DNA of 36,895 nt from Candidatus Uhrbacteria bacterium (GTDB lineage Bacteria; Patescibacteriota; Patescibacteriia; 2-12-FULL-60-25). The DNA lies in NCBI GenBank assembly GCA_030649995.1, contig JAUSEV010000044.1, forward strand, positions 1-36,895, read 5' to 3'. Position 1 is the first letter of the stretch. Each line of letters begins with the position of its first letter. The position numbers were made by a program, and so were the translations under genes. A model generated the notes under the pieces. That model did not search any database, was not told where the DNA came from, and saw only the letters and a program-made list of their open reading frames with translations. Shown here piece by piece: positions 20,631 through 22,534 of the stretch.

Positions 20631-20893
20631 ATTTTCTCTGACTTACACAAAAGCCAGAAATCCGGTTCCCGACGTTCATCATCGAGAAACAAACTTCCGG
20701 CTTCCGTACAGCGAACGGAAACAATTTTTATTGATGTGAACGAAATCGATGAAAGATTGATCTTGCTTCTTTATGCGAGATGGCTGTATTCGACAGCCTC
20801 TTAGGGAGGTTATGCTCTCATGAAGCATCGCTGCGCTTCACTTGTTCCATCCCTGTTGATGGAACAGCAACTTACTCCTCAAGAATCGATCAT
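20631..20893 (-). promoter_or_regulatory. Long structured spacer between rpsJ and rplC
   Basis: No gene is seen in these 263 bases. On the minus strand several hairpins follow in order: GTTCCATC/GGATGGAAC (about 20835-20875), GAAGC/GCTTC, GGCTGT/ACAGCC (about 20785-20805) and TTCCGT/ACGGAA (about 20700-20730). Standard S10 operons have only a few bases here. It could be a leader controlling rplC onwards or a spacer with its own promoter. Confidence 0.5.
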
Positions 20894-21247
20894 CTACATT
20901 TTTATCTCTACATCCACGCCCGCCGGCAAATTGAGCGAGGTCAACGCATCGATCGTCTTGGCATTCGGATCCAGAATATCGACGATGCGTTTGTGGATTC
21001 TCATCTCAAACTGCTCACGGGCATTCTTATGCACAAAGGTTGAACGGTTGACCGTCCACTTCTTTTTTTCCGTGGGCAGCGGAACCGGACCGACCACCTT
21101 TACGCCGGTACGTTCTGCCGTCTCAATGATGGTTCGCGTCGCCTGATCAATAATTTTATGATCGTACGCGCGGATTTTAATCCGCACGCGATGCGAAGAA
21201 GAGACCTCTTGAGCGACAGCCTTCTTGGCCGTGGAAGAATCAGACAT
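20894..21247 (-). CDS. rpsJ: 30S ribosomal protein S10 (uS10), 117 aa
   Basis: RVRIKIRAYDHKIIDQATRTI then KVVGPVPLPTEKKKWTVNRSTF and FVHKNAREQFEMRIHKR identify S10. It also serves in transcription antitermination with NusB in other bacteria. I chose the ATG at 21247 (MSDSSTAKK); a TTG-started longer frame would begin within the large upstream hairpin. About 17 extra residues precede the core. A purine-rich AGGAAAGG-like word is absent on the coding strand, so initiation is SD-poor. Confidence 0.94.
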   Translation of the reverse strand: MSDSSTAKKAVAQEVSSSHRVRIKIRAYDHKIIDQATRTIIETAERTGVKVVGPVPLPTEKKKWTVNRSTFVHKNAREQFEMRIHKRIVDILDPNAKTIDALTSLNLPAGVDVEIKM

Positions 21248-21271
21248 GGGTAAAGGAAAGGAGCCCGGACA

Positions 21272-21327
21272 TTCGGCCCCCGTTTTTGCCAACCTGACGC
21301 ATCAGGCTGCCAAAAACGGGGGCCGAA
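21272..21327 (-). promoter_or_regulatory. Long hairpin upstream of rpsJ, alternative to the tuf terminator
   Basis: TTCGGCCCCCGTTTTTG (21272-21288) pairs perfectly with CAAAAACGGGGGCCGAA (21311-21327); inside, CCTGA/TCAGG (293-297 with 302-306 of the 21 kb block) adds a second helix. The right arm (21311-21322) is also the 3' arm of the tuf terminator, so the two structures exclude each other. Confidence 0.7.
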
Positions 21328-21339
21328 GCTCCCCCGTTT
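21311..21339 (-). terminator. Terminator after tuf, part of a putative attenuator
   Basis: On the minus strand AAACGGGGG (21339-21331) pairs with CCCCCGTTT (21322-21314) around an eight-base loop, then two more T and GG. It lies five bases after the tuf stop codon. The short T run makes it a moderate terminator. Confidence 0.6.
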
Positions 21340-21343
21340 GGAT

Positions 21344-22534
21344 TTATTTAATAATTTTCGTGACCACACCGGCACCGACCGTTTTTCCTCCCTCGCGAAT
21401 GGCAAAACGCATCTTTTCTTCCATAGCAACCGCCGTAATCAACGTGACTTCCATTTTGACGGTATCGCCCGGTTGCACCATGGCGACCGCTTCCGGAAGT
21501 TTGACTTCACCGGTTACGTCTGTGGTTCGAATATAGAATTGCGGTTTATATCCCGTGATAAACGGCTTGTGACGGCCGCCTTCCTCTTTGGTCAAGGCAT
21601 ACACTTCCGCTTCGAACTGGGTATGAGGCGTAATCGTACCCGGTTTGGCCAAGACCATGCCGCGTTCCACTTCGTCCTTTTTTGTGCCGCGCAAGAGGAT
21701 GCCAGCATTGTCACCGGCCATGCCGGAATCCAGTTGTTTATTGAACATTTCAATGCCCGTGACAACCGTTTTACGCGTCTCACCCAAACCGACGATTTCC
21801 ACTTCTTCATTGATCTTCACTTGACCGCGTTCAATACGACCGGTAACGACGGTGCCGCGACCTTCGATAGAAAACACGTCTTCAATCGGCATGAGAAGCG
21901 GCTTGTCCATTTCACGCACCGGCTCCGGAATAAATTCATCGCAAGCCTTGATGAGATCCAACACCGGTTTGGAGGCGGCTTCATCTTTTGGATTCTGCAA
22001 CGCCTTTAACGCTGAACCGCGAATAATCGGGGTTTTGTCGCCGTCAAATTCATACTTCTTCAAAAGATCGCGGATTTCTTGTTCCACCAAATCGATGAGT
22101 TCCGCGTCTTCCACCATGTCAACCTTGTTCAAAAAAACAACGACAGCCGGCACACCAACTTGGCGCGCGAGCAAAATGTGTTCGCGTGTTTGCGGCATCG
22201 GACCGTCTGTGGCGGACACGACCAAAATCGCGCCATCCATTTGAGCCGCGCCGGTGATCATGTTCTTAATATAATCCGCGTGACCTGGACAATCCACGTG
22301 GGCATAGTGACGCTTCTCGGATTCGTACTCGGTGTGAGCCGTGGCAATCGTAATACCACGAGACTTTGACTCGGGAGCTTTGTCCAGGTCATCAACACCC
22401 TTGGTTTGAGCCTGCATCCCGTGAGCCGCGAGGACAGACAGGATGGCTGCCGTGAGCGTCGTTTTTCCATGGTCCACGTGACCGATGGTGCCGATGTTCA
22501 CATGCGGTTTTGTTCGCTGAAATTTATCCGCCAT
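21344..22534 (-). CDS. tuf: Elongation factor Tu, 396 aa
   Basis: EF-Tu brings aminoacyl-tRNA to the ribosome. The GTPase motifs are complete: [10 protein letters not shown] (about 19-28), [12 protein letters not shown] with the DxxG, NKVD, and SALKAL. Domains 2 and 3 follow ([43 protein letters not shown], and [10 protein letters not shown]). Length is standard. It has its own promoter (22617-22645) because the str operon is split by an island between fusA and this gene. No SD is seen. Confidence 0.97.

Follow-up and report, generated by a model that had tools for sequence, protein, structure and literature searches.

A conserved RNA element between tuf and rpsJ of Candidatus Uhrbacteria is a candidate intercistronic ribosomal-protein leader

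Introduction

Between tuf and rpsJ, the genes of elongation factor Tu and ribosomal protein S10, nine genomes of one clade of a Candidatus Uhrbacteria family encode a conserved RNA element composed of a basal stem (P1), a one-sided bulge, and an upper stem (P2). Our preferred reading, to which we give a probability of about 0.6, is that this element is an intercistronic ribosomal-protein leader that lies outside Rfam and acts on the translation of rpsJ; for its ligand we can offer a candidate only. Comparison of genomes indicates that the element is real and functional-looking, and that it belongs to a known kind of regulator, the ribosomal-protein leader, while being undescribed in the sources searched.

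The window, by which we mean the whole stretch of 36,895 nt that was analysed, comes from a genome of 1.08 Mb in 50 contigs that is 99% complete, and NCBIfam profiles confirm the identities of tuf, rpsJ, rplC, and rplD in it. A sequence-only reading of the window had described three segments, A, B, and C, within positions 21272-21339 of the minus strand, and had suggested that B chooses between A and C in the manner of a transcription attenuator. That reading was right to place a regulatory-looking RNA between tuf and the S10 operon. It missed segment D and a 7-nt bulge, which fall just outside these positions and complete the conserved structure.

Results

Segments A, B, and C lie on the minus strand where they had been placed (Table 1). 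The tuf stop codon TAA (21346-21344) is followed by ATCC and then by segment A; 9 nt separate the stop codon from P1, and a loop lies between A and B. The A:B pairing of the window forms a GC-rich stem of 9 bp with a T run behind it, and folded alone it reaches -16.6 kcal/mol (z -1.65 relative to shuffled controls). The claim of a perfect 17-bp B:C hairpin was confirmed by folding: the stem is continued after one mismatch by 8 further pairs, and the fold has an energy of -47.9 kcal/mol and a z score of -7.53; none of 200 shuffles folded as well. A and C compete for B, which, as had been stated, is unable to pair with both at once. Compared with the whole genome, the tuf-rpsJ segment has no second copy and matches only itself in inverted orientation.

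Table 1. Positions of genes, RNA segments, and structural elements around the tuf-rpsJ and rpsJ-rplC gaps of the window
Feature	Position	Strand	Basis or remark
tuf (elongation factor Tu)	21344..22534	-	NCBIfam TIGR00485, 697 bits
Segment A, AAACGGGGG	21331..21339	-	pairs with B in the terminator-like alternative; 3' part common to P1
P1 5' strand, GGGGAGC	21328..21334	-	consensus fold placed on window
P2 5' strand, 17 nt	21311..21327	-	fold, RNAalifold
Segment B, CCCCCGTTTTTG	21311..21322	-	partner either A or C; T run 21316-21312
Distal P2, 8 bp + 4-nt loop	21290..21309	-	variable among relatives
P2 3' strand, includes segment C	21272..21288	-	fold, RNAalifold
Segment C, CAAAAACGGGGG	starts 21288	-	within P2 3' strand
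7-nt bulge, UGUCCGG (consensus UGNCANG)	21265..21271	-	column conservation in alignment A3
P1 3' strand = segment D, GCTCCTT	21258..21264	-	ends 10 nt before rpsJ AUG
rpsJ (S10)	20894..21247	-	NCBIfam TIGR01049, 139.9 bits; ATG 21247-21245
E1	20799-20882	-	conserved RNA between rpsJ and rplC
E2	20649-20720	-	terminator-like hairpin with T run before rplC

The gene rpsJ was found in 40 of the 41 genomes of the family, and all 40 upstream spacers were examined. Nine genomes (G000, G001, G002, G007, G014, G015, G016, G028, and G039) have a common layout, in which a P1 of about 7 bp and a U.G or C-G pair are followed by a one-sided bulge on the 3' side, P2, and the rpsJ AUG. The bulge, UGNCANG, is 7 nt long (6 nt in G014), P2 ranges from 8 bp to more than 25 bp, and P1 ends about 8-11 nt before the rpsJ AUG. 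Alignment A3 and the covariance model built on it (R1) used 8 of 10 candidates, leaving out G014, which MAFFT misaligned, and G020, which has no bulge. Across the 13 core pairs of these eight aligned sequences, 96.2% of cells are paired, and 10 of the 13 pairs, including all 7 of P1, have changed on both sides. Neither the percentage paired nor the covariation score was reached in any of 500 shuffles, and sliding the partners by 1-3 columns left only 56.7-65.4% paired. From the same alignment RNAalifold returned P1, the bulge, and P2 unprompted, with 15 of 22 pairs doubly changed, and alignment-free folding of single sequences gave the same arrangement in 8 of 9 genomes. When segments A and D were swapped among genomes, 37 of 5000 permutations paired as well as the true combinations, kinship being uncontrolled in this comparison. 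In the window the consensus fold has an energy of -56.7 kcal/mol versus -58.4 for the MFE, which closes a slightly different basal stem instead of P1; the consensus fold lies 8.6 kcal/mol below P2 alone. Taken together, comparative sequence analysis establishes the predicted structure, position, and conservation of P1, the bulge, and P2.

The bulge (A3 columns 73-79) is the sharply conserved part, with 77.0% pairwise identity, as compared with 38.1% at rpsJ fourfold sites, 38.6% in distal P2, and 44.0% in the linker. This conservation bears on two explanations that require no regulatory protein. The C arm, 17 nt long, repeats B plus its flanks exactly in inverted orientation, as would be expected if the sequence had been copied by template switching and had no function; such a mutational or chance origin is very improbable, given that the pairs covary and the bulge is conserved among genomes whose fourfold sites are saturated. 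Cutting of the long duplex by RNase III, separating tuf from the S10 operon mRNA, would accord with the nearly perfect 25-bp duplex of the window and with the unrelated long hairpins that occupy the same spacer in other clades of the family. However, P2 is only 8 bp long in G016, where P1 and the bulge stay, and it is the bulge rather than the length of the duplex that is conserved; we regard processing as an improbable account of the element. An AUG in the bulge was also considered as the rpsJ start and rejected, being in frame, by eye, in only some genomes.

The covariance model matched 9 of the 41 genomes of the order, which consists of a single family, and 9 of 380 genomes of the class, one copy each and only at tuf-rpsJ. 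G014, absent from the model, was recovered at E 9.2e-10. All nine matches lie directly upstream of rpsJ, and tuf is visible upstream in eight; the contig of G001 ends first. Of 80 named loci, five matched with E values of at most 4.4e-10, and their bit scores were the same as in family genomes. With filters switched off, the best match in the window apart from the element and its own reverse strand has an E value of 1.7. A tree of tuf, rpsJ, and rplC places the nine carriers within one 12-genome clade (SH-aLRT 99), and the other 28 family genomes on the tree have a different hairpin or a short spacer in place of the element. As far as searched, the element is restricted to one clade of the Ca. 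Uhrbacteria family. A search of the window against Rfam found two tRNAs only, the relaxed threshold adding weak microRNA, snoRNA, and ALIL matches, none near its gathering score; searches with six loci gave no match at E 0.05.

Other genera of the family have a different tuf-rpsJ hairpin with a conserved 3' trailer, approximately GGGAC-GGGAAC-NAYC-AUG (L021, L023, L024, L027, L028, L030-L033, L035-L037, L040, and L041); the alignment for the sister clade (A6) took in 13 of 14 sequences.

Within the carrier clade, G020 and G021 keep P1 and P2 and have no bulge, and G012 keeps the order tuf-rpsJ with a 27-nt spacer and no hairpin. The element is therefore dispensable: the 28 genomes outside the clade do without it, and three members of the clade have lost either the bulge or everything. 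The two bulgeless genomes, and the short distances from the tuf stop codon to P1 and from P1 to the AUG, would also suit a hairpin that senses no protein, with P1/P2 closing rpsJ until the ribosome terminating on tuf opens it. Such ligand-free coupling is unlikely as a full account, since the bulge is conserved far above neutral sites and would be needless for a plain hairpin.

The attenuator reading holds that A:B terminates transcription after tuf, that B:C prevents this, and that the ratio of the two is regulated. The A:B hairpin of the window, with its T run, does look like a terminator, as had been claimed; this part of the claim does not extend to relatives, where a terminator-like hairpin with a T tail occurs in 1 of 38 family spacers, the window's own. 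(This survey omitted 2 of the 40 spacers, those of G001 and G033, whose contigs carry no tuf end.) A:B is strong in G000, G001, G021, G028, and G039 and weak or absent in G007, G015, G016, and G020, so several members of the clade keep P1/P2 with A:B weak or missing. Loss of an arm in relatives with the same gene order is thus found for the A:B terminator but not for P1/P2, which is kept in 11 of 12 clade genomes. For antitermination, the competing strand has to be transcribed ahead of the finished terminator. Here C, which starts at 21288, follows the end of the A:B T run (21312) by 24 nt; polymerase is already beyond the termination point by the time C is made, and B:C therefore cannot act as an antiterminator. 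We therefore found neither a conserved terminator with a U tract nor an antiterminator strand that is made first, and the choice between A:B and B:C is not supported as an attenuator. Two observations run in its favour besides the shape of A:B in the window. Among spacers of other Patescibacteria, 26 of 62 have a terminator-like hairpin after tuf (the 62 remain after removal of 16 of the 78 named-locus spacers that nearly duplicated family spacers), and partial termination after tuf may therefore be widespread. Furthermore, only 66 of 5000 permutations of swapped segments paired as well as A and B of the same genome, with kinship uncontrolled; this fit suggests that a transient A:B state may be real. 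On balance, attenuation at this site is quite unlikely.

A Shine-Dalgarno-like sequence precedes 2 of the 26 ORF starts examined (window 9263-29691, minus strand), a count that takes in some ORFs possibly misstarted or non-genic; CACCTCCTTT is retained at the 16S 3' end despite this scarcity. It follows that the absence of structure around the start may be of more than usual importance, and also that a block of initiation by P1 is less clear, because Shine-Dalgarno sequences are rare here.

Mimicry of rRNA by the bulge received no support in a resemblance test that used sequence only, for the bulge and its flank: the best 16S match was worse than those of most column-shuffled motifs (424 of 500 as high), and for the 23S region, flanking or intervening DNA included, 60 of 500 shuffled motifs scored as high. 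A resemblance to 16S helix 43, the S7 site, had first been suspected from the E. coli sequence; this candidate was rejected, the motif being missing from the organism's own 16S gene and the motif scan empty. The 23S gene itself (G000:C26:44-3011, L137-L140) matches its model in separated pieces over the contig, and intervening sequences are suggested because the pieces span more DNA than the model.

The window spacer contains no GTTCTTT and lacks the GYTCTTT core close to the start codon; all it has is pyrimidine-rich sequence in the P1 3' strand and the linker. The P1 3' strand was considered as a degenerate boxA, but the exact motif is absent from the window. Elsewhere, GTTCTTT precedes rpsJ in 16 of 78 tuf-rpsJ spacers of named Patescibacteria loci (L081, L087, L089, L090, L096, L097, L102, L107, L112, L114, L115, L117, L118, L127, L134, and L136), as compared with a mean of 0.8 in 200 dinucleotide shuffles. 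At a 16S rRNA locus on the minus strand (L047), a boxA-like GGGTTCTTTTTGAGAG stands directly before the 16S 5' end, and GTTCTTT occurs there.

The next gap of the operon, between rpsJ and rplC, holds two further elements. E1 has the strands GGAG-NAAGU and UAAC-CUCC, which enclose a variable inner domain, and an internal loop GGAGNAAGU...UAACCUCC. All 40 family genomes that have rpsJ carry it: a pattern search found it in 39 and the covariance model in G021. In alignment A5, which used 32 of 39 sequences, 99.0% of pair cells are paired, with 0 of 500 shuffles as high; the E1 model matched 36 of 380 class genomes, all within the family and with one copy each, and E1 has no Rfam family (six loci, E 0.05). 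A hairpin of the E2 type was found by arm search in 34 of 40 family spacers, and in many cases a small hairpin whose loop contains UCGC comes before it. E2 is a possible attenuator for L3/L4. Judged by sequence, E1 and E2 together are a better candidate for an attenuator of this operon than A:B between tuf and rpsJ.

Discussion

The tuf-rpsJ element has the two properties by which ribosomal-protein leaders are recognized, a conserved structure that covaries and a position consistently upstream of a ribosomal-protein gene (9 of 9). As for an expression platform, P1 ends 10 nt before the AUG, where initiation may proceed without a Shine-Dalgarno sequence, and no terminator is conserved; the conserved core of P1, bulge, and P2 adjoins the rpsJ start and therefore points to translation. 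We envisage that in the tuf-rpsJ transcript A would pair first with B, and that once C appears B would be captured into the stable P2, freeing A to close P1 with D, so that P1, the bulge, and P2 would form one long irregular helix before the rpsJ AUG. A ribosome finishing tuf could then open P1 and allow coupled translation of rpsJ. The ribosome at the tuf stop codon, which the sequence-only reading had named as a possible signal, is plausible as an input for the leader as for A:B. A protein of the operon might bind the bulge and hold P1 shut, thereby lowering rpsJ translation when ribosomal proteins are in excess; S10 is the first candidate, solely by the adjacency of its gene. A:B resembles a weak terminator only in the window genome, where it may secondarily trim read-through from tuf.

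A parallel is the uS7 site between rpsL and rpsG in the E. coli str operon, which is likewise intercistronic and joins coupled translation to autogenous control by a ribosomal protein (in the part of the text available from PMC10931766), as is proposed here. There, uS7 represses the coupled but not the independent translation of rpsG from an intercistronic site (PMC10931766, same part). The present element differs in its gene pair, in having only a candidate ligand, and in the lack of any 16S similarity found here. The E. coli S10 leader is positioned before rpsJ, and the window element would similarly control the S10 operon just before its first gene. In E. coli, however, the leader is a long 5' UTR and works with a terminator and NusA, whereas the window element is intercistronic, follows tuf, has no conserved terminator, and matches nothing in Rfam. 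The protein acting in the E. coli leader is uL4 (available text of PMC10931766).

The candidate leaders of Eckert and Weinberg 2020 share the definition used here, a covarying structure consistently upstream of ribosomal-protein genes (PMC7247131, as far as its text was available). That paper lists no leader of rpsJ in its Table 1, and its main text, as available, mentions neither 'Patescibacteria' nor 'Candidate Phyla' (PMC7247131). Our literature search, with most subscription papers beyond its scope, found no report of this element or of ribosomal-protein leaders in Patescibacteria. Autoregulation of NusE (S10) through BoxA has been predicted in gammaproteobacteria (PMC5725501, in the portion available), and the two systems are alike in that S10 would act on rpsJ at a site immediately upstream of the start; BoxA, unlike the window element, is a short linear motif. 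S10 is NusE, and boxA autoregulation may therefore extend to Patescibacteria.

A wider reading, in which control of the S10 operon of this family is split so that S10 reads the tuf-rpsJ leader while L3 or L4 reads E1 and acts by way of E2, is put forward tentatively, and we think it somewhat doubtful. If true, two undescribed RNA devices would take the place of the one L4 leader that E. coli has, in a lineage poor in Shine-Dalgarno sequences, and S10, which is also NusE, would set its own synthesis through coupled translation. Feedback control by ribosomal proteins seems hardly described in Patescibacteria. The sharply conserved bulge offers a direct target for binding tests, and the family-wide RNA between rpsJ and rplC would provide an attenuator open to testing in a group of whose regulation little is known.
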